Source: Methanomicrobia archaeon
GTDB taxonomy: Archaea > Halobacteriota > Syntropharchaeia > Alkanophagales > Methanospirareceae
Length of the DNA: 51,179 nucleotides
Direction of reading: 5' to 3'
NCBI GenBank assembly: GCA_016930255.1
Contig: JAFGHB010000046.1
Span: forward strand, 1 to 51,179
Shown: one piece after another, positions 25,101 to 51,123 of the stretch
Position numbering within the stretch: the stretch's first letter is position 1
Layout of the letters: each line of letters begins with the position of its first letter
The notes under the pieces: model-generated
Database searches by the model: none
What the model was told of the DNA's origin: nothing
Seen by the model: only the letters and a program-made list of their open reading frames with translations
Program-made: the position numbers and the translations under genes

Positions 25101-25581
25101 AAGAAATATTAGGTATTACTTCAAAGAAGGAATTAGCTTTTCTTCGAGAGGCTTGTTTTCCCCAACCTTTAGATTGGGCTCTATTTCACCATTTGATAAA
25201 GAAAGTTCTTGCATTTTTGTGGATAATGAATATTGGTATCTAGGTTTGCTCTCTTCTAAGTTTGCAAAATTTATATTTAGATCTTATATTCAACATACCG
25301 TATCATCTGATGTTGATTCATTGAAAAAGATAATAATACCCTTTAATATATCCAACAATAAAAAAATTGAAGATTATGTTATATCTATTATTTCAACACA
25401 AAAACAAAATCCAAAATATGACTACATGACCAACGAGCAGCTTGAGATTGATAAGCGGGTATACGAGCTGTACAATCTCAACGAAGAAGACATCCAGGAA
25501 GTTGAGAACTGGTATTACCGCAGGTATCCGAAGTTAGCACACGCGATTGAAGAGCGGTTGAAGGCGAAGAACAATGGCTGA
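22111..25581 (+). CDS. COG1002/Eco57I-type DNA adenine methylase with specificity domain
   Basis: 1156 residues. SAM motif I is DPGVGSGAFSVDIL (about residue 413) and the catalytic motif IV is ANPPYG (about residue 662), the N6-adenine class. Between them lies a long charged, coiled-coil-like insert (about residues 530-645). Residues about 860-1105 form a target-recognition region like that of type IIG/PglX proteins; its DNA is far AT-richer than the rest. The N-terminal 300 residues are of unknown fold and I see no PD-(D/E)xK nuclease motif there, so cleavage probably resides in the next two genes. The stop overlaps the DUF1016 gene by 8 bp. Role: self-marking methylase and specificity module of a restriction or defence system. 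Confidence 0.88.
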   Translation: MMVSTTDWRRILPVLQDLNDIETLRRLFIDELNYDYENQDLVIEYPESIREAIHSTKIIAEKGAFKIVLCNIETLLKGIELHAVKAISRYYLYNLIVFTNPKSDEFHFVNTKYIGGIRPNNVRGFRRITVGKTERLRTAADRLARIFAPEGIAPSALMAQCEDAFDVEAVSKAFYEEFVKRYKDLRDAIKSHNRLLDKKDADKLTQEITNRLIFLYFIQKKGWLNQDYSFLYNGFTRLNSENREFYKEFLVPLFKRLSDPDFDHPEFETIPFLNGGLFEFDDGLEGNVTIPNDAFKSLFDDLLERFNFTIREDTEYEEEVAIDPEMLGRIFEQLILSLESEQFKDIPDPRRASGSYYTPRFIVSFMVKQALLNYLVTELPQIPREALKALVFELSTEGIDDPALVKEKLLVLKIVDPGVGSGAFSVDILNKLVSLIEKLNEHLGTQEERYYLRKKLIEDCIYGVDCQERAVHLARLRLWLSLIVDIEVEDLGAIPPLINLDFKIVRGNSLVSKICGFSFDLETQLSGKVKKSEEQMRLLGLRGKYNSLKLKYAEAITAAEKEKLKSQIDKTRREITIWVLERIRTKKEKDLKAVGAQRTLVEKSTRELANEERLREAIKQELSDIDEKIREIKAGKEIDAFNWELNFFEVMDVSRGGFDIVIANPPYGVAVDKSISNAEFGLGSKDSYGVFAALGVNILKPGGTLCYIMSDTWQTIRTHYPLRKKLFEETKAQYLISVPMRTFKATVNTGIYLFKKSAPDKIKNNFIIAADFHGRDIKTGDLETAFDTLIQIEPDETAQDGYTIISDEEKAIYVYRQKMIKRFSNLSFFIASPKLFALMDDTTNVIPGNPPVMSVKFNGKAIELVRLGNIAKVLAGLQTSDNKYYLRQFPNTKGSNYREIDLSLVLKEEELEKIREDEKLKQEIIEKGISTNPIHQHRYFGGRYFVPYDKGGASDVEEGWLPNYYVPTPYFIDWSEKAVKNLLEGTLIRAQSKKPYPRNIRYYFKEGISFSSRGLFSPTFRLGSISPFDKESSCIFVDNEYWYLGLLSSKFAKFIFRSYIQHTVSSDVDSLKKIIIPFNISNNKKIEDYVISIISTQKQNPKYDYMTNEQLEIDKRVYELYNLNEEDIQEVENWYYRRYPKLAHAIEERLKAKNNG

Positions 25582-26605
25582 GTTGAGCGAATACACGGCG
25601 TTTCTGAACGAGCTGAAAGTAAAAATACGGCACGCGCAGTACCGGGCATACCGGGCGGTAAACAGGGAACTCATCGCTCTTTACTGGGATATCGGCAAGT
25701 CCGTTGTGGATAAGCAAGAGGAACAGGGCTGGGGCTCGAAGATCATCCAGCAGCTCTCTCACGATTTACAAACTGAGTTCCCGAGAAATAGCGGGTTCTC
25801 CTACGCAAATCTGGACCGGATGCGGAAGTTCTATCGCACCTACAAGGATAAGCCAAAACTCGCACAGCTTGTGCGAGAAATCCCATGGGGGCAGAATATC
25901 GTTATCCTCGAGAAACTGAGTGATGACTATCAGCGCGAATATTACCTGCGCATGACCGCCCGAAACGCATGGAGCAGAAACGTGCTCGTGCATCAAATAG
26001 AAACCCGATCCTTTGAACGGTTCTTGGCAGAGGCGAAAAGTCATAATTTCGACGAAACACTGCCCGTAACAATGCTACAGGACGTAGAGCCGCTCATAAA
26101 GGATAGCTACATGCTTGACTTTCTTGACATTGCTGCAAGTATAAAAGAGCGCGAATTAGAGCGCAAGCTCCTGGAGCATATCAAAAGTTTCCTCTTGGAA
26201 CTCGGGAAAGGATTTTCTTTTATCGGGCATCAATATAAAATTGTGCTGGGCGAGAATGAATACTTCATCGACCTGCTCTTTTACCATCGTTACCTGAAAT
26301 GCCTGATCGCCCTTGATTTAAAAATCGGTAAATTCATTCCGGAATACGCGGGGAAGATGAATTTTTACCTTAACCTTCTGGACGATACCGTTAAACTGCC
26401 AGATGAAAATCCCTCCATCGGGCTCATTCTCTGCAAAGAGAAAGACAATATTGTCGTCGAATACGCTTTGAGGAATATCGAAAAACCGATGGGTGTCGCA
26501 AAGTATTATTTGACCAGAAGATTACCTGCTGAATTAGTAAAACAATTACCAGCTCCCGCGGTCATTGAAAAGAAACTGAAAGAACTGGAGGCGAGCGGGA
26601 GATGA
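25574..26605 (+). CDS. DUF1016 (YhcG-type) PD-(D/E)xK nuclease
   Basis: 343 residues in the two-domain YhcG layout. The N-terminal DUF1016 part has YWDIGKSVVDKQ, WGSKIIQQLSHDL and GFSYANLDRMRKFY. The C-terminal nuclease part (about residues 205-270) has GHQYKI, then EYFIDLLFYHR and IALDLKIGKF, giving the D...(D/E)xK triad (Asp in FIDLL, Asp and Lys in LDLKIG). Such proteins are often encoded with restriction-modification genes. It overlaps the methylase by 8 bp and the helicase gene by 4 bp, so the three are translated as a unit. It may be the cutting subunit of the system. Confidence 0.9.
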   Translation: MAELSEYTAFLNELKVKIRHAQYRAYRAVNRELIALYWDIGKSVVDKQEEQGWGSKIIQQLSHDLQTEFPRNSGFSYANLDRMRKFYRTYKDKPKLAQLVREIPWGQNIVILEKLSDDYQREYYLRMTARNAWSRNVLVHQIETRSFERFLAEAKSHNFDETLPVTMLQDVEPLIKDSYMLDFLDIAASIKERELERKLLEHIKSFLLELGKGFSFIGHQYKIVLGENEYFIDLLFYHRYLKCLIALDLKIGKFIPEYAGKMNFYLNLLDDTVKLPDENPSIGLILCKEKDNIVVEYALRNIEKPMGVAKYYLTRRLPAELVKQLPAPAVIEKKLKELEASGR

Positions 26606-29600
26606 GTATGCCAGAATATTCCGATATCATTGACAACCGGAATCGCTACCTGAAAGACGAGATAAATGCGTGCCTTAAAGGAACGGAAGAGGCGAAATTC
26701 GCCGTCGGGTATCTCTTCCTCTCGGGATTTAATGAGATCGTCACCAACATTGCACATCTGGACGGACTCAAACTTATCATCGGCTCGACATCTAATTCGC
26801 AGACCCTTGAGGAGATTGCCGAAGGTATGGCGCGACGGGAAGAGCTCGAAGAAGCTGCTGAACGATTGAAATACCAGAAATTAACCGATAAAGTCGCGAT
26901 CGTTGATACGGTAAAGAACAAAATGGCCCGCAACATCGGTAGTCTCGAGCAGTCAGAAGAGAATGAGCTGATGCTCTCTTCGCTGCAGGAATTAATCGCA
27001 GCGGAAAAGGTGAAGATCAAGGTTTATACAAAACAGCGGCTCCATGCGAAGGCATATCTCTTCAAATATGCCCCTGAATCTGCAGAACTGGCGAGAAGTA
27101 CCGGCATTGCCATTGTTGGCAGCAGCAACCTCACACTCTCCGGCTTCAAACACAGCACTGAGTTGAACGTCTATGTACGGGATAACAAGAGTTATAAAGA
27201 GCTTGATTCCTGGTTTGAGAATCTGTGGAGCGAATCCGAACCTTTCAGTGAAAAATTCAGGAACTCACTTGAAGATAGTTGGGCCTTAAGGTTTGCCGAT
27301 CCGTATGATCTCTATATCCTAACCCTCTACAATCTCGTGCAATCACGGATGAAATTCCGCTCTCGTGTCCTCTTTGACTGGAGTCGAATGCCGCACCTGT
27401 ATACGTTCCAGAAAAAAGCAGTACTGCAGGCATACGAAACCTTGAACCGTTACGATGGCGTCTTTATCTGCGATGTCGTGGGGCTCGGAAAGACTTTCAT
27501 CGGTGCCGCATTGGTCAGCCAACTGGGTAAACGAGCAGTTGTTATTTGCCCGCCACGCGTGCAGAGCATGTGGGACGAGTTCGGTGAACGCTTCCAAATC
27601 GACATCAAAACTGTCTCGCACGGCATGTTGAACAAAGGCGTTTATGATGAGAACAGCGAACTCTGGAAATGGCGCGAGCGAGACGTTGTGCTCATTGACG
27701 AGAGTCACTATTTCAGAAATTCCGACACCAAACGGTATGCCGAACTACATCCGTTTTTGGTCGGTAAAAAGGTCATTCTCGTCACCGCAACGCCGCAGAA
27801 TACTTCCATCTGGAATATTTACAATCAGATACGACTCTTCAATCAGGAAGGCACAAACGATTATCACGTACCTGGGGGCTCTCTCAAGGAGTTCTTCAAT
27901 ATGGTGGAATATGGAGATTCGAGAATAGAAGAGTTACTCACGAAAATCTTGATCCGGCGAACACGGACATTCATAAAGAAGCAGTATCAGTCGCAGGAAG
28001 GGGAGTATGTCGCATTCCCGAAGCGGAAACTCGAAACCGTTTCCTACAACATTGATGAGACCTATAATAATCTCTTCGGCAAGATAGAAGAGGCGTTAAA
28101 GAGGCTCACCTATGCGAAATACAACCTCTGGCCATTCGTTAAGGAAGAGAAGAGAGGTGAACAGGTTTACAGAGATTTGAAAAAGGTAACAGGACTCTTG
28201 AAAGGATTGCATAAAGTTATGCTCTTTAAACGATTGGAGAGCAGCATATTTGCGTTTTCTGAAACTATCAGAAGATTGTGTAGAATTCACAAGCGATTTC
28301 TCGCTGCTTTAGAATCAGATATCGTCCCTGCCGGCGAAGAAGCACAGGATTTGATTTACAGCGAGGATGTTGATATCGCAGATATACTGGGAGACCTAAA
28401 GGAAGCCTCAAAAAAATATCAGGTGACCGACTTCAGAATAGATGATCTTAAACGCGACCTCCAAAATGATATTGAAATCTTTGAGGACATCGCAGAATTT
28501 TTGGGACGTGTCCCTGAGAGTAGTGATAAAAAGTTTGACGAATTACTGAAAATAGCCCAAAGACACAAGGGGGAAAAGTTGCTTATCTTTTCGGAATACG
28601 CCGATACGGTCAAATACCTCCATAAACGATTAAAAGGAAGGGTCGAGAATCTCGAGTTTGTAACCTCAAAGACGAAAGATGCAGTGTCAATTATTAAACG
28701 ATTCGCCCCGAAAGCTAACGAATACATCATTAAAGGCGATGAATCTCCGATTGATGTTGTTGTTTCCACCGATGTCTTCAGTGCTGGCTTGAACCTTCAG
28801 GACTGTGGCACCGTGGTAAATTATGATCTTCACTGGAACCCCGTGCTCCTCATCCAGAGAATAGGCCGCGTTGATAGAATAGGGACCGAACATGATGTTA
28901 TCAGAACCTACAACTTCCTCCCGCATAAACGAATCGATGAGAAGATCTCACTCAAGGAGCGGGTTTCTAGGAGAATCCAGGAGATACACGATCACATCGG
29001 CGAGGATGAAAAGATCCTCGATGAATCAGAACGACTGAATGAAGAAGCCATTTATGCCATCTACGATAAAAAAGATGTTGACAGCATAGAGGAGCAAATG
29101 GATGGAGAAGAATTTAATATCGAAGAAGCAGAGCTACTCATCGATAATCTTGAAAAGAATAACACCAAATATTTGCGAGTCATTAAAAACCTGCAGCTTG
29201 GTACACGAAGTTGTAAGAGGGACGAACATTACAGAGGTCTATTTGCTTATTTCAGAAAAGACGATTTCGAACAACTCTATGTCCTTAAACGGGACGGAGA
29301 GATCATGTCAGACATTGGAAAGGTGATCTCTGAGCTGAGATGTCCCGATGAAGAGAGACTACTTTCTGTGACCCACGAAGACAAAAGATTAATTTACGCC
29401 GGATTAAAAACCTTAGAAACGCGATTCAAAACAGATTATCAGCGTAATGTTGAATTAGAGTCCAAAAAGGATCCAGTCATCCAAAAAGTCGTGCAAAGAC
29501 TCGCACAGCTGAGAAAGGAACTACAGAATGAAGAAGACTCAGCACTGATAGACGAAATAAGCAGCGTATTGAACAGGGGTATTCCTGATAGGGCGCTAAA

Positions 29601-29763
29601 GGAGCTGAGACGGCTTGAAAGGACGAAAGTCAAGGGGAAAGAGTATCTACAAGGCCTTGTGGACGTATATAATCGGTATAGAATGGGGGATTTAAAAGCC
29701 GAGGAAGTGGTAAAGAAAGAATATAAACCTATTGAATTAGTCTGCTGCGAAGTGTTAAAATAA
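26602..29763 (+). CDS. PLD-nuclease/SNF2-type helicase fusion
   Basis: 1053 residues. The N-terminal about 210 residues are phospholipase D-like: RLHAKAYLF gives H-x-K and IVGSSNLTLSGF is the GSxN part; the Asp of a classic HKD motif is not in its usual place. A SNF2/superfamily 2 helicase follows: motif I VVGLGKTFIG (about residue 292), motif II LIDESHYF, motif III VTATPQN, and the C-terminal half with SAGLNLQDC and QRIGRVDRIG (motif VI, about residue 755). The last 200 residues are charged and helical. PLD-helicases of this kind occur in defence islands with adenine methylases. It could translocate on foreign DNA and pass it to the nuclease partner; this is inferred from family and neighbours. 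Confidence 0.88.
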   Translation: MSMPEYSDIIDNRNRYLKDEINACLKGTEEAKFAVGYLFLSGFNEIVTNIAHLDGLKLIIGSTSNSQTLEEIAEGMARREELEEAAERLKYQKLTDKVAIVDTVKNKMARNIGSLEQSEENELMLSSLQELIAAEKVKIKVYTKQRLHAKAYLFKYAPESAELARSTGIAIVGSSNLTLSGFKHSTELNVYVRDNKSYKELDSWFENLWSESEPFSEKFRNSLEDSWALRFADPYDLYILTLYNLVQSRMKFRSRVLFDWSRMPHLYTFQKKAVLQAYETLNRYDGVFICDVVGLGKTFIGAALVSQLGKRAVVICPPRVQSMWDEFGERFQIDIKTVSHGMLNKGVYDENSELWKWRERDVVLIDESHYFRNSDTKRYAELHPFLVGKKVILVTATPQNTSIWNIYNQIRLFNQEGTNDYHVPGGSLKEFFNMVEYGDSRIEELLTKILIRRTRTFIKKQYQSQEGEYVAFPKRKLETVSYNIDETYNNLFGKIEEALKRLTYAKYNLWPFVKEEKRGEQVYRDLKKVTGLLKGLHKVMLFKRLESSIFAFSETIRRLCRIHKRFLAALESDIVPAGEEAQDLIYSEDVDIADILGDLKEASKKYQVTDFRIDDLKRDLQNDIEIFEDIAEFLGRVPESSDKKFDELLKIAQRHKGEKLLIFSEYADTVKYLHKRLKGRVENLEFVTSKTKDAVSIIKRFAPKANEYIIKGDESPIDVVVSTDVFSAGLNLQDCGTVVNYDLHWNPVLLIQRIGRVDRIGTEHDVIRTYNFLPHKRIDEKISLKERVSRRIQEIHDHIGEDEKILDESERLNEEAIYAIYDKKDVDSIEEQMDGEEFNIEEAELLIDNLEKNNTKYLRVIKNLQLGTRSCKRDEHYRGLFAYFRKDDFEQLYVLKRDGEIMSDIGKVISELRCPDEERLLSVTHEDKRLIYAGLKTLETRFKTDYQRNVELESKKDPVIQKVVQRLAQLRKELQNEEDSALIDEISSVLNRGIPDRALKELRRLERTKVKGKEYLQGLVDVYNRYRMGDLKAEEVVKKEYKPIELVCCEVLK

Positions 29764-37227: not shown

Positions 37228-37590
37228 TCAAAATAACTCCAGATCCTTCGTCACCTTATCTATCTCATCCGCACGAGCAGGCCCTATTCCCAGTGCTGTT
37301 ACCGTTCCCGGCGGTATTTCTGTCAGGCCCGCATCCTCGACAATTGCACACGGCAGGCCCAGCCGCTCCACATCGTCCCGTACTCCATACAGCTTCGCAA
37401 GACTTGATACTTTCAGTGCGACCTTCTTCTGGCCCTGATTTTTCCAGTTGCGTCGATCGGGCAATGGTGCACGTTCGTAGCTCAGTATAGCGGCATGCGC
37501 GGCCTGCACTGCGGCCTTACCTTTCGAGAGCTTCAAATCCTCCCTGAGGACGATACACTGCTTATATTCGTGTTGTGTCTTACTGATCAT
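37228..37590 (-). CDS. pth2: Peptidyl-tRNA hydrolase, archaeal type (Pth2)
   Basis: 120 residues, the usual Pth2 size. Family motifs are KQCIVLREDLKLSKGKAAVQ AAHA (with the conserved Lys, Gln and His), KKVALKVSS, LPCAIVEDAGLTEI and the C-terminal TALGIGPA. It cleaves peptidyl-tRNAs that drop off ribosomes. Its start overlaps the end of the STAND/TPR gene by 4 bp, so the two are probably translated in sequence; ATG at 37590 is the only good start, five residues before the family block is reached. Confidence 0.95.
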   Translation of the reverse strand: MISKTQHEYKQCIVLREDLKLSKGKAAVQAAHAAILSYERAPLPDRRNWKNQGQKKVALKVSSLAKLYGVRDDVERLGLPCAIVEDAGLTEIPPGTVTALGIGPARADEIDKVTKDLELF

Positions 37591-39713
37591 TGGTTGCGGT
37601 TCTCTCCTTCTTCTAATTCCTCTAATCGTTTACTGACAATTTCAAAAACTGAACTGCCTTCAGCAAGAGGTTTTGCTTCTCGATAGTATTCCAAAGCGCG
37701 CTCTTTATCACCTTTCTGAATGAAAATTTCACCAATATTGCCCAACGTTTGGGCTGTTTCTATTCTGCTTCCCACGCCTTTGAAAATTTCTAAAGCGTTC
37801 TCGCAATATTCCAATGCTTTGTTAAGTTCCCCTTGGTTCAAGTAAGCATTACCTATATTCGCAAGATTTATCCCAAATCCTTCTTTATAACCTATCGCCT
37901 CATCAAGTTTCAATGCTCTCTTAGAATATTCCAAAGCCTTTTCAAATTCTCCTTTGTGCAGATAGACAATCCCTATGTTCGCGTAGTTTATTGCTATCCC
38001 TTTCTTTCTGCCTAACTGCTCATTCAATTTCAAGGCCTTCTGGTAATACTTTAACGCCTTACCAAGTTCTCCTTTTTCTTTGTAGACTATTCCTATGTTC
38101 CCAAGCTGATTTGCCATGCCCTCTTTTCTGCCTAATTCCTCGTTGAGTTTCAGAGACTTCTCGTGATATTCCAACGCTTTGTCAAGTTTTCCTTTGGTTC
38201 TGCAGATAAGGCCCATGTTTCCAAGGTCTCCTGCTATTCCCTCTTTTCTGTTCAATTTCTCATCTAGTTCCAATGCCTTTTTCTGGAATTCTAAAGCCTT
38301 GCTAAGTTTTCCTTTGGTTCTGTAAATATTACTTATGTTTCCATAGCCCTTTGCCACCTCATCTTTCAGTCCTAACTTCTCATGCAGCTCTAAAGCGTTC
38401 TTGAAATATTCCAAGGCTTTATCGTTTTCTCCGATATCCCGGTAAGCAAGGCCGCTATTTCCTAGTGCATTTGCTTCCCAGTTTTTATCTACATCTTTTG
38501 CCTCTTCATGGAGATGACGCCACACACAAAGTGCCTGCTTCGTTTTACCCCAGGTATACGCCTGAATTCCGACGGAATTAAGGACTTTGTAATTCTCTGT
38601 TTGTTTCAGCAAGCTCTCAAAAAAAGGTTCATCGAGGACTTCAAGAAGGATAATAACCGAATCAAGCTCATCTTTGACCTTTTCTAGTGCTTCACTATAA
38701 ATCTTCTGTTTAGTTTTGAACGCTACTGGTTGTATGCTCCTCAAATACGCTCTAAAAAGCGGATGATAGATGCGGTAGATTTTTTCTTCTGATGTTACAA
38801 GAATCCCTCGTTCGATGAGATCGGTAAGCGAAGGATCCACATCGTCACCACAGAAAGCCGCTATCAAATTCAGAGTCAACGTTGCCGGAGCAATCGCCAG
38901 GGATTTTATAACCTCTCGAGAACCTTCGTTCAGCGTCTCTAAAACTTTTTTATGAATACGATCGAGATTATGTTCCATGTCCGCGTCTCTTAAAGTCTGC
39001 AGAAACTGAGCTATCTCTTCTTCTGAGTCTTTATTATCGCAGATATACGCAAGCGACCGCGCAACGTACGGATAGCCCTTTGAAAGAGCGACAATCCGGT
39101 GCACAATCGCATCTGAAAACCCGGGGCATTCTTTTCTCACAATCTGCTCTATGGCGTCCTCGCTTAGTTCCGACAGTTGAACAACTTCGTAGGAACCTGG
39201 TCTGATCGTGACATCGGGCAGATAAGGAGTTGCAATTTCGAGAACGAACCGCAAGCGATCGTTCCTACGAGTTGCCTCCAAAATAGTTTCAAAATCCTCC
39301 TTCTTCAATTCATGGGCGTTCTCCACAAACACAATCTTATCCTTCGATTTCTCCATGTATTCCAAAATAAAGGGCTCTCGCGGATCCCAACTCAATCCTC
39401 CACCTGCGCCTGCTATAGGTGTTGAAACAGAACCGGAAACACCCGTAAGTCTTTTAGAAGGCGCAAAAATCCTGTTTACCTCCTCATAGAAGAATGAACC
39501 ATTAACGTGATAGCATGGTTTTTTCTTCAAAAAACCCGCTTTTTCTTCATTTAATGCTTTCTCAACGACGAGCGCTAAGTTTGTCTTCCCGATGCCCCTG
39601 TCTCCGGTTACAACGACAAAACCGCTGTCTTTAATCTTTTCTTTAAGCTCGGCGATTTTTTCACTGCGTCCTACAAAGTCGTTCCCATACTGCGGATCTA
39701 AAATCTTAACCAT
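37587..39713 (-). CDS. STAND-type ATPase with C-terminal TPR repeats
   Basis: About 708 residues from MVKILDPQYGND. The NTPase domain begins with FVGRSEKIAELKE, has Walker A GDRGIGKTNLA (about residues 38-48) and Walker B-like IVFVENAH (about residue 142). A winged-helix-like part follows, then from about residue 435 seven or eight regular 40-residue TPR repeats with the KALEYxxxAL core and a LGNIGxIY partner helix. The layout is typical of signal-responsive STAND switches, in regulation or defence. A start 11 codons upstream is open, but the TATA-like TTTTATTTT (about 39737-39743) is 27 bases before 39713, giving a leaderless start there. The overlap with pth2 suggests a link to translation; a conserved repeat array can also drift by recombination. 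Confidence 0.85.
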   Translation of the reverse strand: MVKILDPQYGNDFVGRSEKIAELKEKIKDSGFVVVTGDRGIGKTNLALVVEKALNEEKAGFLKKKPCYHVNGSFFYEEVNRIFAPSKRLTGVSGSVSTPIAGAGGGLSWDPREPFILEYMEKSKDKIVFVENAHELKKEDFETILEATRRNDRLRFVLEIATPYLPDVTIRPGSYEVVQLSELSEDAIEQIVRKECPGFSDAIVHRIVALSKGYPYVARSLAYICDNKDSEEEIAQFLQTLRDADMEHNLDRIHKKVLETLNEGSREVIKSLAIAPATLTLNLIAAFCGDDVDPSLTDLIERGILVTSEEKIYRIYHPLFRAYLRSIQPVAFKTKQKIYSEALEKVKDELDSVIILLEVLDEPFFESLLKQTENYKVLNSVGIQAYTWGKTKQALCVWRHLHEEAKDVDKNWEANALGNSGLAYRDIGENDKALEYFKNALELHEKLGLKDEVAKGYGNISNIYRTKGKLSKALEFQKKALELDEKLNRKEGIAGDLGNMGLICRTKGKLDKALEYHEKSLKLNEELGRKEGMANQLGNIGIVYKEKGELGKALKYYQKALKLNEQLGRKKGIAINYANIGIVYLHKGEFEKALEYSKRALKLDEAIGYKEGFGINLANIGNAYLNQGELNKALEYCENALEIFKGVGSRIETAQTLGNIGEIFIQKGDKERALEYYREAKPLAEGSSVFEIVSKRLEELEEGENRNQ

Positions 39714-39797
39714 TGATATTATTAAAAGAACTAAAAATAAAAGCACTTAACGTAATCTTTACTTAACGTAATACCGGAGAACCAAAGAGCGCTTAAG

Positions 39798-42546: not shown

Positions 42547-43014
42547 ATGCAGCAACGGCGTAGCGCGGGCATGATAGACATAAGCCAGAAAGGCGAAGTC
42601 GAACGCGTAGCGACAGCGTCTGGCAGGATACAACTGAGACGGAGCACGATCGAGAAATTGCAAAGCGGCACGACCAAGAAGGGGAATGTGCTTGCGAGTG
42701 CAGAACTCGCAGCGATCTTAGCAGTGAAGAAAACGCCCGAGGTCATTCCGCTCTGCCACCAGATAAATATCGCGAACGTAACGGTTGACTTTACCGTCGG
42801 CGACGAGGATATAAGAGCCTCGGTATCGGTGAAATCCGTGGGGAAAACCGGTGTGGAGATGGACGCGCTTCATGGGTTAGCTGTGGCGTTACTGACGGTC
42901 TGGGACATGGTGAAAGCGGAAGAGAAGGACGAAACGGGCAACTATCCGTACACGAAGATAGAAGAGATCGTCGTGGATAAGAAGGAGAAACGACCTCTCA
43001 ACCAAAGTAACTAA
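42547..43014 (+). CDS. moaC: Cyclic pyranopterin monophosphate synthase
   Basis: 155 residues, the usual size. It converts the MoaA product to cyclic pyranopterin monophosphate in molybdenum/tungsten cofactor synthesis. Signatures: GMIDISQKGEVERVATASG, KKTPEVIPLCHQI (family IPLCH) and SVGKTGVEMDALHGL followed by ALLTVWDMVKA. The region before it, 42503-42537, is a run of imperfect GAGT/GAGC repeats, and the start lacks a clean ribosome site. MoCo enzymes such as formate or formylmethanofuran dehydrogenases would be clients; none is in this window. Confidence 0.95.
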   Translation: MQQRRSAGMIDISQKGEVERVATASGRIQLRRSTIEKLQSGTTKKGNVLASAELAAILAVKKTPEVIPLCHQINIANVTVDFTVGDEDIRASVSVKSVGKTGVEMDALHGLAVALLTVWDMVKAEEKDETGNYPYTKIEEIVVDKKEKRPLNQSN

Positions 43015-44578: not shown

Positions 44579-44613
44579 ATGAAGGCGTTAGGAATAGATC
44601 CCGGTACGAGTAG
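44515..44613 (+). CDS. 32-residue ORF overlapping the DUF1464 start
   Basis: MVNRIEKVETDNWKEGLGGY and on to RNRSRYE. GAGGAGAGAG lies directly before its ATG, stronger than for many real genes here. It runs out of frame through the DUF1464 ribosome site and start (44579) and stops 35 bases inside. It could be a coupled leader peptide; it could be chance. Confidence 0.3.
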   Translation: MVNRIEKVETDNWKEGLGGYGYEGVRNRSRYE

Positions 44614-45682
44614 CTTTGACTTCTGCGTTCTTGATGATCAAGCGGGGATCGCCCTCTACGAAGCGTCTGTACCCACAGCTGTTGTGGCTAAGTCACCGGA
44701 GAGTCTCCTCAGTGTTGTCAAGGAAGCGAACGCCGACGTGATTGTCGGGCCGTCAGCCATGGGCTTGCCCGTGACGCATATCTCTGAACTGACCGATCTG
44801 AAGCTTGCGCAAGCGACATTAGGAAAGAACACGGAGGTTGATATCGCCATCAGACAGTTCATCATGATGCAGAAGGAGCTTAACTTAAACGTCTTCTTTA
44901 CCCCAAACGTCATTCAGCTCCCGACGGTGCCGCGGTATCGTAAGCGGAACAAGGTCGATATGGGGACGGCGGATAAGACCTGCATCGCCGCGCTCGCACT
45001 CTGGGACTACGCAAACAGCCACAGTGAGAACTATCAGGATGCGAACGTCGTCGTGCTGGAGTTAGGCTTCGGGTTCAACGCAATCATGGCTATCGAGGCG
45101 GGCAAACTAATAGACGGTATTGGCGGGACGCTCTTTCCTGGCCCGGGCTATCTCACGATCGGCGCGATGGATCTGGAAATAGCGCACACGTTGGGGAGCT
45201 TTACGGAGGCGCAGCTCGGATTTGGCGGTATCGCGTATGCTGCGGGGGACGTTATTCCACCGGAAGAGTATGTCACGCGACTCGACGAAGAGAATTTTGC
45301 CACTGCGTGGAACAGCCTCGTCGAAGGGATTGTCAAAGCGGTTGCGATGGAACTGACGGTCTTTGAAGAGACTCCGACGGAGATTATTCTTTCAGGGCGG
45401 CTCACACGGGTGCCAAAGTTGTATGCACGGCTGGTTGCGAGTTTGGGGCGGGTCAACATCCCGATCAGAAAGCTTGAAGGCTATGCGACGAAGAGCAAAG
45501 AAGCTGCTCAGGGTGCCGCACTCATTGCTAGCGGACTCGCAGGTGGCACGCACGCCGAGCTGGTTGACGTACTCGAGTTACGCGGTGCGAGCGGTACCGT
45601 TTTAGATTATATTCGCTGGCCGGGATTCAATGCAGAGGAGACCATACGTAAGAAGCTGCAGGCAATGAAGATGAAGCTTTAG
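44579..45682 (+). CDS. DUF1464 family protein, copy 1 (kinase-like)
   Basis: 367 residues of the DUF1464/COG2441 family, which has the actin-like ASKHA fold of acetate and butyrate kinases; biochemical role is unproven. The phosphate-1 loop is GIDPGTSSFDF at the N-terminus. Next come QLPTVPRYRKRNKVDMGTAD, VVLELGFGFNAIMAIEAGK, DGIGGTLFPGPG and EIILSGRLTRV. This copy has Ser-Phe where the others have KSMD in the first loop. AGGAGGT lies 7 bases before the ATG. It lies 700 bp before the minus-strand RFAP synthase and belongs to a set of three paralogs in 6.2 kb. Confidence 0.88.
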   Translation: MKALGIDPGTSSFDFCVLDDQAGIALYEASVPTAVVAKSPESLLSVVKEANADVIVGPSAMGLPVTHISELTDLKLAQATLGKNTEVDIAIRQFIMMQKELNLNVFFTPNVIQLPTVPRYRKRNKVDMGTADKTCIAALALWDYANSHSENYQDANVVVLELGFGFNAIMAIEAGKLIDGIGGTLFPGPGYLTIGAMDLEIAHTLGSFTEAQLGFGGIAYAAGDVIPPEEYVTRLDEENFATAWNSLVEGIVKAVAMELTVFEETPTEIILSGRLTRVPKLYARLVASLGRVNIPIRKLEGYATKSKEAAQGAALIASGLAGGTHAELVDVLELRGASGTVLDYIRWPGFNAEETIRKKLQAMKMKL

Positions 45683-45846
45683 CCATTTTCACACAGACTT
45701 GTTAACTGGTCGGTTTTTGGTTTAATCTTGGGAACTTACAACCACCTGATAAAAAGCTGGAGCTGGGCTAGAGAGTGGAAGTTTTAGTCCCCGCCCAAGC
45801 ACTCTTGCCACTCATCCCTTCGCCTTTACTCTTACTACCGCTGATA

Positions 45847-46101
45847 CTAAGTTTGCTTAAGCAATTCCACCTTCGTCAAAAATGTAAGCAGATAACCTAT
45901 AAGAATTCCCAGGAGCAACGAAAAATTGCTACTATCAAGAATACCGGTTGAAGTGAGCCAAGTTGCTACACCTAATATAGCGCCAATCAAAACCACCACG
46001 ATAATCAGTCGAATACCTAAATAGATCAAATTATCTCTCTGGATTTTCTTCCAGTTTCCCATTACCGTCTCGACGACATCTTTTATACCTTCTTGAATCA
46101 A
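45847..46101 (-). CDS. Small membrane protein, unknown
   Basis: 84 residues with two long hydrophobic spans (about residues 28-50 and 58-76), preceded by an amphipathic start MIQEGIKDVVETVMGNWKKI. The spans fit a helical hairpin in the membrane. It follows a short acidic gene by 23 bp on the same strand; the two are AT-rich compared with neighbours and may be a recent insertion between DUF1464 copy 1 and the RFAP synthase. Confidence 0.55.
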   Translation of the reverse strand: MIQEGIKDVVETVMGNWKKIQRDNLIYLGIRLIIVVVLIGAILGVATWLTSTGILDSSNFSLLLGILIGYLLTFLTKVELLKQT

Positions 46102-46124
46102 AGCCCTTGTGCCTTCAGGATTGC

Positions 46125-46286
46125 TTAGGGCAGTAGTCCAGAATTTTGGTTATTTTGCCCTTGAGTTGCCCAATATTGAAGGCGATCATACTCTTCACGA
46201 GAAATTATTAGTTCTTCTTGTCCTTGAGCATCAGGAACATCAGAGGTCGTTTCTTTTTGTTCTTCTCCCATATTTTCTACCCCCAT
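46125..46286 (-). CDS. Small acidic protein, unknown
   Basis: 53 residues from MGVENMGEEQKETTSD, with an acidic, Gln-rich and probably unstructured body (DVPDAQGQEELIISREEYDR) and no family I know. An open frame reaches a TTG at 46331; ATG at 46286 is the better start, with a TATA-like stretch (GCATATATCA on the minus strand, near 46320) at a fitting distance; ATG at 46271 is an alternative. It precedes the small membrane gene by 23 bp, probably on the same transcript. Confidence 0.4.
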   Translation of the reverse strand: MGVENMGEEQKETTSDVPDAQGQEELIISREEYDRLQYWATQGQNNQNSGLLP

Positions 46287-46373
46287 AGCTTCATGTGATT
46301 TTTCCTTATCTATTATGATATATGCTTTCAAACTATTTATTGGGATTCGTTCTACAAAAAATCTACTCTTTTC

Positions 46374-47351
46374 TTAAACGATTCCGATGCGTGCACCTTG
46401 ATTGTCCGATCCGACCACTGAGACCTCAGCCTTGCCCCGCGCCTCCGCTTCGATCGTATCCGCAATGCACTGCGCAGCTTCAGGGCTATCAGTAAAGGCG
46501 TAGACGGTCGGCCCCCACGAGCTTTGGCCGATACCCAATGCGCCGCTTCGGTTAAGTATCGGAATGAGCCATTGCGATGCGGGATTGAATAGTTGCTCCT
46601 GAACTGGCTGATAGATACGGCCAACGGTCATCTGAAGCTCGGTGAGCGCTTTACCAAAAGCTGCTGCATTCCGTTCAAGGAGCGCAGGCAGCATTTTCGC
46701 GGCGAGTACGAAGTAGCCTTTGTGAATGAGCTCAGCCGGCGCTTTTCTGTCCCGCAAGGTGCTGAAAGCCACCTCCTCCGACTCCTTATCAGGGCTCTTC
46801 GGCGCCACTAACGGCCGCGTCAAGACGAACCGCCAGTCCTCAGGGAAGTCCCCACGGAAGATTAAAGGTGGTATCAGCGTCTCTTCTCTCAACCATATTC
46901 GCTCGCCAGGTTTCACGGGGAAGCCCCCGGCAACGACAAAACCCCCCAGTTGAAACGGGTAGATCCCTCCGGTCGAGGTGCGTTTGAGCGCCTTCACCAA
47001 TTCGAGGAGCGGCACGTCAAGACCATAAGCCTTTGTCACCGCCCGCCCCACGGTGAGGCTGAGTTGCGTCGTTGACCCAAAACCTTGATTTCGTGGTGCA
47101 GCGGCTTTAACGGTAACTTTAGCACCTTTGAGATCAAACGCATCCAGGACACGCTGAGCGTACATGCGAGCATCATCTTTTTCAAGGCCGTCAATTTCCA
47201 GGCCATCGGCCTCTTCAGCTTCAATGACAGTTCGCGGCTCCGTTATGGCCAAGACGGGCGCATAACCAAACCTACCGAGCGCAAACGGGTCTAAATCGCC
47301 CAAATGGAGCCGTGCTGGAGCAGAAATCGTAACACGCATTTTGAACACCAT
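46374..47351 (-). CDS. RFAP synthase family protein, paralog A
   Basis: 325 residues of the GHMP-fold beta-RFAP synthase family, the enzyme that joins PRPP and 4-hydroxybenzoate at the start of methanopterin synthesis. N-terminal ISAPARLHLGDLDPF, the GHMP loop PRNQGFGSTTQLSL, the strand GGFVVAGGFPV and the C-terminal GQSSWGPTVYAF are visible. Here the loop has Asn-Gln where the common form has a His before Gly-x-Gly-Ser. A frame extends well upstream, but the TATA element CATTTATAATAG (47371-47382, minus strand) is centred about 27 bases before the ATG at 47351, so the transcript is leaderless from MVFKMRVTI. The gene is divergent from paralog B. Confidence 0.85.
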   Translation of the reverse strand: MVFKMRVTISAPARLHLGDLDPFALGRFGYAPVLAITEPRTVIEAEEADGLEIDGLEKDDARMYAQRVLDAFDLKGAKVTVKAAAPRNQGFGSTTQLSLTVGRAVTKAYGLDVPLLELVKALKRTSTGGIYPFQLGGFVVAGGFPVKPGERIWLREETLIPPLIFRGDFPEDWRFVLTRPLVAPKSPDKESEEVAFSTLRDRKAPAELIHKGYFVLAAKMLPALLERNAAAFGKALTELQMTVGRIYQPVQEQLFNPASQWLIPILNRSGALGIGQSSWGPTVYAFTDSPEAAQCIADTIEAEARGKAEVSVVGSDNQGARIGIV

Positions 47352-47492
47352 CGTAACTGTACGTTGTGAACTATTATAAATGTTTCTTTCAAAGAGTTCG
47401 GCGTGCAGTGCATAATTACGCGGTGTGTTAGCGTGGTTATTAAAATAAGAAGTGATAAGAGATGGGTAATGATACGGAGGAAATGAGAAATA
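47352..47492. promoter_or_regulatory. Shared divergent promoter of the two RFAP synthase paralogs
   Basis: 141 bp. Minus-strand TATA at 47371-47382 for paralog A. On the plus strand a TATA-like ATTAAAATAAG (47440-47451) and ACGGAGGAAATGAG before the ATG of paralog B. A common regulator site could control both, but I see no clear palindrome. Confidence 0.4.
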
Positions 47493-48479
47493 ATGGCTAA
47501 CGTTGGGGATATTGGAAGAGTCGTTGTTGTACCTGCTCATCTACACGCAGGCAATATGGACCTAACTGGCGACCTTGGACGGCTCTACGGCACCGCAGGC
47601 TTCACCCTCGACTACCCGCGAACCGTCATAGAGGTCGTTAAATCTGATAAGATCACGATCACGGGGGAAGACACAAAGAACGCGGAGGAATATACAAGAG
47701 TATTTATGGAGCGTTTCAAGATCGCGGGCGGAATAGCTGTTAACGTCAGGGAAACCATTCCCAAGCACCTCGGCATGGGCTCTCAGACCGCACTTGCATT
47801 ATCCATCGGCCACGCGATAGCGGAACTCTACCATCGCTCTATCGATATAGAGGAGATGACTATCGCGCTCGGAAGATCTGACATTGTCGCTCTCGGGTTC
47901 AACTCGTTCCAAACCGGCGGGTTCATCGTCGATGGCGGATACCGGATAGCAGAGAAAGGTCGGAGGGTTCCTCCCTGCCTATTCAGATACCCTATACCTG
48001 AGGACTGGCTCTTTGTCGTTTGCATTCCTCGCAAGCCGATACCGGAGATACTGAAGATAAAAGAGCACGAGGAGAAGATACTGAACAACCTGAAGCTGAT
48101 GCCAGAGCAGATGTCCGACCGGCTCTCGAGGATAATGCTCATGCAGGTGATGCCCTCGATCATGGAGCACGACATAAAGACCTTCGGCAAATACATAACG
48201 GCATTCAACAGCCGCCTGGGGAGCTTCTGGGAAGAGTTCCAGGAGGGCAACACCTACTGCGATCCCGTCGTCGAGTCCGGCATAAAGATCCTCTTGGAGA
48301 ACGGCGCGTATGGGGCCTGCCAGACCTGCTGGGGTCCGACGTTCTACGGGATCGTTGATAACGGCGACATTGCGAGAACGCTGGTTAAGAAACTTGAGGA
48401 GCTGCTGGAAACGCATGGCGGAGGCGACGTCTTTTACACACCGGGGAACAATAAAGGAGCGGTGATAAGAAGATGGTAA
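47493..48479 (+). CDS. RFAP synthase family protein, paralog B
   Basis: 328 residues, same family as paralog A. The N-terminus VVVPAHLHAGNMDLTGDLGR, the loop PKHLGMGSQTALALS (with the conserved His before Gly-x-Gly-Ser), the strand GGFIVDGGYRI and the C-terminal CQTCWGPTFYGI (Gly-Gln-Ser-Ser-Trp in most members, here Gln-Thr-Cys-Trp) show the fold. Each paralog thus keeps some family residues and lacks others. The GRSDIVALGFNSF segment also lacks the usual Ser-Gly pattern. The stop overlaps the next DUF1464 gene by 7 bp, a strong sign of joint function. The reaction of either paralog cannot be told from sequence. Confidence 0.87.
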   Translation: MANVGDIGRVVVVPAHLHAGNMDLTGDLGRLYGTAGFTLDYPRTVIEVVKSDKITITGEDTKNAEEYTRVFMERFKIAGGIAVNVRETIPKHLGMGSQTALALSIGHAIAELYHRSIDIEEMTIALGRSDIVALGFNSFQTGGFIVDGGYRIAEKGRRVPPCLFRYPIPEDWLFVVCIPRKPIPEILKIKEHEEKILNNLKLMPEQMSDRLSRIMLMQVMPSIMEHDIKTFGKYITAFNSRLGSFWEEFQEGNTYCDPVVESGIKILLENGAYGACQTCWGPTFYGIVDNGDIARTLVKKLEELLETHGGGDVFYTPGNNKGAVIRRW

Positions 48480-49621
48480 CCGCAATTGGGATAGATCCCG
48501 GAACCAAGAGCATGGACCTCTTCGGGTTTGATGATGCATCCGATGAGGTCATCATAGACCTCGCCATACCGCGAGTTGAGGTGACAAAGGATCCAGAAAT
48601 CGTGCTGGAGGCCATACGTGCACTGGACCGTGAAATAGATGTCATAGTCGGGCCAAGCGGCTACGGGCTGCCGATGGTAAAAGCTTCAGAAGCTGCGGAC
48701 GGAGAAATCAATGCCGCGACATTCATCACGCAGGCCGACGTTGCGCGAAGGCTCAACATCGTGGGGTTACGGGAGTTGATGTTCCTCATGAAGAAATCAA
48801 ACCTCAACGTTTGGTTTCCGCCTGGTGTTATCCATCTGCCTACCGTGCCCGAATACCGGAAGATTAACAGAATAGACATGGGTACCGCAGACAAGGTCTT
48901 CACGGCGGTTTCCGGGATAAGAGATCAAGCGGAGAGATACGATCTCGATTACTCCGAGACGTCGTTCATTGCGCTTGAGATTGGCTTCGGCTATACGGCT
49001 GCGCTGGGGATAGAGAACGGTAAGATCGTTGACGGCGTCGGCGGGACTATCGGCGGGGTCGGATACATGGGCATGGGCGGAATGGACGGCGAACTCGCCT
49101 ACGCCTTAGCAAATACGGTTGGAGCGTTCTCGAAGATGATGCTCTTTAATGGCGGTGCTGCCTCGATTTCGCAGATTGATCCCCAGAAAGTTTCGATTGA
49201 GGAATTCCTCCATCGCGCACGGAGCAACGAGCAGCTGGTGAAGCTCGCCTATTCCGCCATGCTGGAATCACTACTCAAGGATACGTACCTCATGCTTTCG
49301 TCGGTCAGGCAGCCAAAGGAGATCTTACTGAGCGGGCGGTTCACGCGGATTGACTCGTTCGTTCAGGACGTAACATCTTTACTGCAGGACCATCTCAGCG
49401 AACGCGGAGTCGACGCGGGGATAAGAACCCTGACGAGGACTGGCGGCGAAGTAAAGGAAGCTGCGGAAGGCGCGGCGGTTATTGCGAACGGAATAGCAGG
49501 CGGGAAATACGAAAAGCTGGTAGAAATCATGGAGCTGAGAAAGAGTTCAGGCGGAGTGTTCAGCCACATCTATCTTGATGAGGAAACAAGGCGAAGAATA
49601 GAAGAAACTTTTACACAGTAA
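48473..49621 (+). CDS. DUF1464 family protein, copy 2 (kinase-like)
   Basis: 382 residues. Phosphate-1 loop GIDPGTKSMDLFG; then IVGPSGYGLP, HLPTVPEYRKINRIDMGTAD, FIALEIGFGYTAALGIENGK, DGVGGTIGGVGYMGMGG and EILLSGRFTRI. This is the full ASKHA core and the most family-like copy. It overlaps paralog B of the RFAP synthase by 7 bp (start ATG within the preceding AGATGG), so the two are translationally coupled. DUF1464 proteins are annotated as possible butyrate or acetate kinases by fold alone; the coupling points to a phosphorylation step in the same pathway as the RFAP synthase-like enzyme. Confidence 0.9.
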   Translation: MVTAIGIDPGTKSMDLFGFDDASDEVIIDLAIPRVEVTKDPEIVLEAIRALDREIDVIVGPSGYGLPMVKASEAADGEINAATFITQADVARRLNIVGLRELMFLMKKSNLNVWFPPGVIHLPTVPEYRKINRIDMGTADKVFTAVSGIRDQAERYDLDYSETSFIALEIGFGYTAALGIENGKIVDGVGGTIGGVGYMGMGGMDGELAYALANTVGAFSKMMLFNGGAASISQIDPQKVSIEEFLHRARSNEQLVKLAYSAMLESLLKDTYLMLSSVRQPKEILLSGRFTRIDSFVQDVTSLLQDHLSERGVDAGIRTLTRTGGEVKEAAEGAAVIANGIAGGKYEKLVEIMELRKSSGGVFSHIYLDEETRRRIEETFTQ

Positions 49622-49675
49622 CGCCTTAGTATTTAGAGAATGCTAAAGAATGATGCGTTCTATTAGGGGAGGGGT

Positions 49676-50809
49676 ATGACGCGCGCAGCAGGTGTTGATC
49701 CGGGAACGAAGAGCATGGATATCTGTGCCATCGAGGATGGCAGGGTGTACTATGAGAACCCGTTTGAGAACCTCGTCATAGCGAATGCTCCTGAGAAGAT
49801 AATAGCGGGGATACGCGAAGCGTTACCCTTAGACCTCATTGCCGGGCCGTCGGGTTACGGCGTGGAACCCACACGGCTCGACGAGATCCCGGAAAGCATC
49901 TTCGAGGACTGGTATTACAATTACGTCTTACTCACGACGAAGGAGGAGATCCTGAAGGGGATAGAAGACGGCATCTTCGGCGCGATCCTGTACAAGAACA
50001 TGACCGATTTCTCGGTCTGGCTGCGACACGAGCAGTTACTGGCGATGTTCATCCCGTCGGTGATCGAACTGCCGACCGTGCCGTATTACCGGAAGCTAAA
50101 TAAGCTCGATATGGGCACTGCGGACAAGTTGGCGGTGGCGGTGCTCGGCGTTCATGATCAATCGCGGCGGTTCGGCATCCCGTACTCGGACGTGTCGTTT
50201 ATCCTCGTCGAGGTTGGCTTTGGGTATAATGCGGTCATCGGCGTCGATGGCGGCCGCGTGGTGGACGGTATAGGCGGCACGAACTTCCCCGGTATTGGGT
50301 TTTTAACGGCTTCGGCGGTGGATGGCGAGCTGGTGCAGATCGTGCATAACTGGGAGCGGAAGGACACCTTCGAGGGTGGTGTCGTCTCCGTCACCGGCGA
50401 GATGGATCCTGACGCGTTTGTCAGCCGTAAGGGCGTTAAAAATGAGATCGCGTTTGACGCAATGATGGAAGGCATCGAGAAAGCGGTTGCCGAGATGACC
50501 GCGTCCGTGAAGAAGCCACGGGAAATTCTCATTTCCGGACGCTGGACGAAACAGAACGAGATAAAAAGAGAGTTGATACGGCGGCTGCTACCGTACGCTG
50601 ACGTGCGCTCAGTCGGTTTTTTAGAGGGCGCCGAGAAGACGAAGGAGACCGCTCAGGGCTATGCGATGGTTGCCGACGGACTAGCCGGGGGCACGTTTAA
50701 GGAATTGATCGAATGGATGCAGATCAACAAAGCGAAAGGGACGGCGCTGGAGTATGTTCATCATCCAAAGCTTTCGGGGCCCCCGGAGCGGTTTGTGGGG
50801 TTCAAATAG
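49676..50809 (+). CDS. DUF1464 family protein, copy 3 (kinase-like)
   Basis: 377 residues. Phosphate-1 loop GVDPGTKSMDICA; then IAGPSGYGVEP, a variable 60-residue segment with TKEEILKGIEDGIFGAILYK, then ELPTVPYYRKLNKLDMGTAD, FILVEVGFGYNAVIGVDGGR, DGIGGTNFPGIGF and EILISGRWTK. It lies 54 bp after copy 2 with GGGGAGGGG directly before its ATG, so it is probably in the same transcript as the RFAP synthase paralog B and copy 2. It diverges from copies 1 and 2 mostly in the segment between the two first motifs, which may set substrate choice. Confidence 0.9.
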   Translation: MTRAAGVDPGTKSMDICAIEDGRVYYENPFENLVIANAPEKIIAGIREALPLDLIAGPSGYGVEPTRLDEIPESIFEDWYYNYVLLTTKEEILKGIEDGIFGAILYKNMTDFSVWLRHEQLLAMFIPSVIELPTVPYYRKLNKLDMGTADKLAVAVLGVHDQSRRFGIPYSDVSFILVEVGFGYNAVIGVDGGRVVDGIGGTNFPGIGFLTASAVDGELVQIVHNWERKDTFEGGVVSVTGEMDPDAFVSRKGVKNEIAFDAMMEGIEKAVAEMTASVKKPREILISGRWTKQNEIKRELIRRLLPYADVRSVGFLEGAEKTKETAQGYAMVADGLAGGTFKELIEWMQINKAKGTALEYVHHPKLSGPPERFVGFK

Positions 50810-50938: not shown

Positions 50939-51112
50939 ATGATTTCGAATATAGAAATTGAGAACTTTAAATGTTTTGGGAAAGGAAAAAATTTTGGAAA
51001 AATATCGGAGCTAGGTAGAGTTAGTGTCATCTACGGTGCAAACAACTCTGGAAAGTCATCTATCTTGCAAGCCATTAGTCTTTTAAAGCAGTCAATTATA
51101 GTGAGGTACTAA
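50939..51112 (+). pseudogene. N-terminus of AAA/OLD-type ATPase, truncated
   Basis: 57 residues, MISNIEIENFKCFGKGKNFG and then VIYGANNSGKSSILQAISLL with an intact Walker A. This is the start of an OLD/RecF-like ATPase of several hundred residues, which ends here at a TAA in ...KQSIIVRY. A TATA-like CTTTAAATAG (50901-50910) lies upstream. Nothing further of the gene is seen, and the sequence after the stop may belong to an inserted element. Such ATPases often occur in defence loci. Confidence 0.6.
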
Positions 51113-51123
51113 ACTTTTAATAC

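Follow-up and report, generated by a model that had tools for sequence, protein, structure and literature searches.

DUF1464, a kinase-like candidate for methanopterin-type cofactor synthesis, and its pairing with a divergent RFAP synthase clade in ANME-1 and other lineages

We analyzed a 51,179-nucleotide contig (JAFGHB010000046.1, the window) from an ANME-1 (Methanophagales-type) genome. Within 6.2 kb it carries three DUF1464 genes together with two divergent members of the RFAP synthase family, all intact. This composition had been put forward in a preliminary description of the DNA and is confirmed by the open reading frames (ORFs), Pfam and TIGR00144. DUF1464-A (44579–45682, + strand) is a core-type member, related to the Bathyarchaeota and Methanomethylicia copies found within methanopterin operons. 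RFAP-A (46374–47339, − strand) follows and is separated by a divergent intergenic region (47340–47492, no strand) from RFAP-B (47493–48479, + strand), whose stop is overlapped by the start of DUF1464-B (48473–49621, + strand) by 7 bp, as first described. The RFAP-B/DUF1464-B cassette thus lies between RFAP-A and DUF1464-C (49676–50809, + strand). Genes were called as the longest ORF; for RFAP-A the listed ORF is longer (46374–47540) and would overlap RFAP-B, an overlap that disappears when the start is placed at an internal ATG, MRVTISAPARLHLG.

All three DUF1464 proteins pass the family gathering cut-off (PF07318, 23.5 bits) with 300–335 bits and the full model covered (E-values of 3e-91, 5e-100 and 3e-89 for A, B and C). 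The motif DPGTxSMD, earlier ascribed to all three, is present in DUF1464-B and -C only, while DUF1464-A reads DPGTSSFD. DUF1464-A also has a long branch in the tree and several altered near-invariant residues and, among the surveyed ANME-1 genomes, is present in the window genome only. DUF1464-C is a long-branch type confined to ANME-1. Both RFAP proteins pass the RFAP synthase-like subfamily cut-off (TIGR00144, 125 bits for RFAP-A and 134 bits for RFAP-B against 113.5) and are far under the RFAP-synthase equivalog cut-off (NF040726, 139 and 183 bits against 328), thus both are divergent. The remaining motif differences were as reported, with a C-terminal GQSSWGPT in RFAP-A and QTCWGPT in RFAP-B, and a loop position that is His in RFAP-B and Asn in RFAP-A. 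A search of the whole window genome (2.23 Mb, 95% complete) found no additional DUF1464 or RFAP-family copy, hence no third, orthodox RFAP synthase that would make these copies dispensable. That the cluster is a chance neighborhood of relics is very improbable: the changed residues and long branch of DUF1464-A are what a relic might show, but there is no orthodox copy, the genes recur in many lineages, and for the B pair this idea is already contradicted.

We compared the two RFAP proteins to the beta-RFAP/RHP synthases (MTH0830, MJ1427, AF2089; TIGR00144, NF040726), with which they share family, length, fold, the C-terminal SxWGP/SSFGP motif, the D19/R26 region (M. thermautotrophicus numbering) and a tetrahydromethanopterin gene context. 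The closest solved structure to RFAP-B is the formycin C-nucleoside synthase ForT (PDB 6YQQ, 8AOZ, 8AP0; 21–24% identity), the best match of the RFAP-B AlphaFold model (pLDDT of 93.3, TM about 0.82). In ForT, Arg19 touches phosphoribosyl pyrophosphate (PRPP) at its 5'-phosphate as well as at its pyrophosphate, and the 5'-phosphate is held by Arg135, Thr106, Ser139 and Ser142 (PMC8183095), while Leu24, Thr138 and Glu211 matter for acceptor or catalysis (PMC9832568). RFAP-B has both the donor clamp and the acceptor contact replaced. The R19 position is His in 21/21 RFAP-B members and Arg in 54/54 other RFAPs, and the L24 position, an aromatic contact, is Asn in 21/21 members. The clade also lacks the T138/S139 pair of the beta-RFAP/RHP synthases, with Ile or Val for Thr138, and keeps Arg135. 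RFAP-A retains the PRPP-clamping Arg19 but differs from these synthases in having Asp at Leu24 and a shortened R135 loop; Asn takes the place of His99. The position of the essential ForT E211 aligns with Glu in both RFAP-A and RFAP-B. Since the RFAP-B changes are fixed across phyla, altered substrates are favored over decay and, judging from its residues, RFAP-B probably differs from other RFAPs in reaction or substrates.

The DUF1464-B model (pLDDT of 92.7) has butyrate, acetate and propionate kinases as its top PDB matches, and Foldseek ranks 1–38 are acetate/butyrate-type ASKHA kinases (E-values down to 8e-14). A weak profile match to butyrate kinase (E of 7e-5, profile positions 148–300) agrees with the fold match; with the butyrate kinase family model NF002834 the score is 22.6 bits, against a cut-off of 222. 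DUF1464 resembles the butyrate/acetate kinases (PDB 1SAZ, 1X9J) in fold and in a phosphate-1 type N-terminal motif, but has Asp-Pro-Gly-Thr in place of Asn-Pro-Gly-Ser, shares about 13% identity, and occurs in a context of cofactor synthesis rather than acid metabolism. The methanofuran enzyme MfnF (COG1548) also has an ASKHA fold in an archaeal C1-cofactor pathway; its family is different from DUF1464, and no match between the two was seen. The model, Foldseek and the profile match thus support the kinase-type assignment first made for DUF1464, with a predicted ASKHA fold nearest to butyrate/acetate kinases and a putative kinase activity.

We surveyed DUF1464 loci in other genomes, starting from one scan of 430 relatives, from which 80 loci were fetched and DUF1464 was called in 77. 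RFAP-B is the direct upstream neighbor of DUF1464-B in 21 of the 22 fetched B-type loci, with a gene overlap of 7–8 bp in most members. This two-gene operon is present in ANME-1, Altiarchaeota, Thermococcus, Nitrososphaerales and Thermoproteota metagenome-assembled genomes (MAGs). RFAP-B and DUF1464-B each form a clade (100/100 in both cases) containing the same lineages, and ANME-1 is nested among Altiarchaeota in both trees. A second RFAP is found in 14/15 B genomes compared to 1/34 other DUF1464 genomes (Fisher p of 3e-10; counted from match tables, split pieces as one gene).

These data bear on two other explanations. RFAP-A and RFAP-B could both be ordinary RFAP synthases that differ in origin and whose use is redundant or condition-specific, with DUF1464 serving the pathway in general and having no specific tie to RFAP-B. 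Both do pass the subfamily cut-off and keep the catalytic Glu position, RFAP-B folds like ForT, and horizontal gene transfer (HGT) accounts for mixed copies. However, the clade-wide changes at PRPP- and aromatic-ring-binding residues, the position of RFAP-B directly upstream of its own DUF1464 type, and the retention of another RFAP by B genomes make this unlikely. We give still less credence to RFAP-B as a non-catalytic or regulatory partner, complexed with a DUF1464-B that replaces the core DUF1464. The lost PRPP clamp and the overlapping genes are in keeping with such a partner. Outside ANME-1 there is one DUF1464 per genome, with few exceptions (three, as in the window genome, are unusual), and B genomes there carry a single DUF1464, except G064 with two, pointing to DUF1464-B taking the place of the core copy. 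Against this, many residues near the RFAP-B active site are strongly conserved; Arg135 is one of them, and most members also keep the pyrophosphate loop.

The preliminary description had read the locus as a duplication and split of function. The diagnostic active-site changes of RFAP-B uphold the split, but the duplication does not stand. RFAP-A and RFAP-B fall into separate clades, each shared with other phyla, that of RFAP-A being common to genus g2 and one Nitrososphaeria MAG, and an approximately unbiased (AU) test rejects a single clade of the ANME-1 proteins (p of 8.6e-5). The tree and AU test thus rule out RFAP duplication in place within ANME-1, and the two genes were acquired independently. 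On the simplest reading, the B operon arrived by HGT, probably from donors resembling Altiarchaeota. We propose that this ANME-1 sub-lineage gained the B operon and an A-type RFAP, lost the orthodox RFAP and retained extra DUF1464 copies.

Among the 58 genomes of the class surveyed, DUF1464 over the cut-off is restricted to genera g1 and g2. Other RFAP-bearing genera mostly have a single orthodox copy that scores around 300 bits, and g1 and g2 genomes have divergent copies instead. The exception is a g2 contig (G003:C50), possibly mis-binned, with a row of orthodox RFAP, PF01947 (DUF98, chorismate-lyase-like) and DUF1464. Genus g2 has DUF1464-C and RFAP-A as divergent (head-to-head) direct neighbors and the RFAP-B/DUF1464-B pair at another place. 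Most other g1 genomes have RFAP-B, DUF1464-B and DUF1464-C in that order and carry on a separate contig another RFAP (A'), adjacent to a gene of 265 aa that we take to be the aldolase of archaeal aromatic synthesis. At L041, L042, L043 and L044, A' directly follows a member of a 265-aa gene family. The same A' proteins have Asn where the M. thermautotrophicus RFAP synthase has the mutated D19. Comparison of PabB (p-aminobenzoate synthase) across the ANME-1 genera reveals a single chorismate-binding enzyme in nearly all, so PabB does not set the genera apart. The window genome has Mch and so uses a C1 carrier of the methanopterin type.

Across the wider survey, an RFAP gene directly adjoins DUF1464 in 26/77 loci, where we estimate that chance would give well under one locus (one or two RFAP genes per ~1,500). 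Within seven genes of DUF1464 we found MptE (10 loci), MptA (8), DUF447 (8), DHPS-like (7), Mer (5), CitG-like (5), SHMT (4), AfpA/Dmr (3) and Fhc (3). MptE-like, DUF447, MptA, DHPS-like (TIGR00284), Mer, CitG-like and AfpA/Dmr (dihydromethanopterin-reductase-like flavoprotein) genes were named by Pfam or NCBIfam, whereas the Fhc, MtdB and SHMT neighbors are putative, identified by reading their sequences. Two loci (L103 and L104) are near-complete methanopterin operons enclosing DUF1464, with the order DUF447-RFAP-DUF1464-Dmr-DHPS-MptA in L103, and DUF1464 likewise occurs with methanopterin genes in Caldisericota, Chloroflexota and Myxococcota bins. Clustering with known tetrahydromethanopterin biosynthesis genes is thus conserved across unrelated genomes. 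A neighborhood survey had been suggested from the outset; the neighbors recur across phyla rather than at random, supporting the initial link to the methanopterin pathway. Because RFAP, MptE, MptA, DHPS-like, DUF447, Mer, CitG-like and Fhc recur, we consider a role of DUF1464 in methanopterin-type synthesis very probable, and its clusters in archaea and bacteria make it a concrete candidate gene.

A ~341-aa family without a Pfam hit, F19, recurs in methanopterin operons beside DUF447 and MptA (L104:12944-13969 and L103, with two tandem copies in the latter) and is another candidate. An apparent DUF1464 fusion in L125 was rejected, since it appears to be an N-terminal over-extension of the ORF with no domain.

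A review of methanopterin synthesis leaves several steps without genes, with seven unknown proteins estimated in 2011 (PMC3087415). White (2011), cited in PMC3261824, reported that phosphorylated RFH-P proceeds to RFSA-P, and that the phenol of 4-(beta-ribofuranosyl)hydroxybenzene 5'-phosphate is activated ATP-dependently. DUF1464 was not mentioned in the literature searched, which excludes most subscription journals, and earlier proposals may exist. To our knowledge, no gene is known for this ATP-dependent phenol activation.

We propose that DUF1464 would be an ATP-dependent phosphotransferase (ASKHA, acetate/butyrate-kinase branch) for synthesis of a tetrahydromethanopterin-type cofactor, acting close to the aryl C-ribosylation by RFAP synthase, with the phenol activation as the first candidate step. 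In the B variant, the partner of DUF1464-B would be its own RFAP-B. With both its PRPP clamp and its aromatic pocket rebuilt, RFAP-B may make or pass on an intermediate that differs in the aromatic or in the donor, leaving the ordinary reaction to the second RFAP. Taken as a whole, including the separate acquisition of the variant, this is the best explanation and somewhat better than an even bet. We infer pathway membership, kinase activity and substrate, and DUF1464 is probably a missing enzyme of the methanopterin pathway. As in the preliminary description, the cofactor may be modified and an intermediate phosphorylated. The ANME-1, Altiarchaeota, Thermococcus and Thermoproteota lineages may have a variant cofactor, marked by the RFAP sub-clade whose active site is rebuilt. 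We hold only tentatively a more specific version, in which RFAP-B and DUF1464-B form a two-enzyme module for a second aryl or heteroaryl C-ribosylation. DUF1464 would then be the kinase dedicated to activation, and the product would be either a methanopterin in modified form or a new cofactor of the C-riboside type.

A somewhat weaker prospect is that the group activated by DUF1464 is a carboxylate or phosphate in the cofactor tail (e.g. for hydroxyglutarate or ribosyl phosphate attachment), with RFAP adjacency a matter of pathway clustering only. The nearest solved folds are carboxylate kinases, and some clusters contain CitG-like and ATP-grasp genes. However, the tight pairing is with RFAP and not with these genes, and RFAP-B and DUF1464-B are co-inherited.

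Several observations weigh against a phosphotransferase near the RFAP step. The folds nearest to DUF1464-B are carboxylate kinases, not phenol kinases, and PF01947 is absent from g1, from all g2 genomes but G003 and from 36 of the 44 DUF1464 genomes tested (over the cut-off). This patchiness makes the 4-hydroxybenzoate route a weaker candidate for a general DUF1464 partner and, with the fold preference, lowers certainty on the phenol-activation step. No tracked pathway gene lies near DUF1464 in 30/55 non-B loci, and no clear RFAP match was found in 6/49 DUF1464 genomes. DUF1464 is missing from M. jannaschii and M. acetivorans, our search controls and both makers of methanopterin-type cofactors, therefore another enzyme must serve in M. 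jannaschii. Other ANME-1 genera also make such cofactors without DUF1464, which is thus not universal. In Chloroflexota, strong DUF1464 matches occur in 4/201 genomes and Mch in 2/201, the two together in G104 only, too few positives for a phylum-wide test of co-occurrence. Most surveyed genomes are MAGs, where some contigs may be mis-binned and some organism titles wrong.

The bacterial MAGs G080, G086, G104 and G106 have a full-scoring DUF1464 and no clear RFAP match; RFAP may be missing from them or have diverged too far. The DUF1464 locus of G104 (L123) carries Fhc, Mch, DHPS-like and CitG-like genes. DUF98/PF01947 accompanies DUF1464 at a single locus (L035) and is absent from most DUF1464 genomes, so we rejected the idea that DUF1464 is generally tied to this family and to the 4-hydroxybenzoate route. 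In L128 (G085), a PF01947 gene adjoins an orthodox RFAP, as in L035.

Finally, other features of the window were noted. A MoaC gene (42547–43014) lies upstream of DUF1464-A; MoaC also occurs near RFAP-A in L038 and L040. In Methanoperedens, DUF1464 loci (L072, L073, L079 and others) likewise have MoaC close by, and GatD is regularly found there as well. A three-gene defense-like operon (22111–29763) encodes a type IIG-like/Eco57I methylase with partial PglX and DrmMI matches, a YhcG-type PDDEXK nuclease (PADLOC candidate PDC-S02) and a PLD+SNF2 helicase (PADLOC C3a139-like), the overlapping genes suggesting one system. An ATPase with TPR repeats (37587–39746, − strand) is STAND-like by sequence, with PADLOC matches to the TPR only. 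Near the contig end, the start of a 'KCFG...GANNSGKS' type ATPase (50940–51113) stops after ~57 codons and is truncated or broken.

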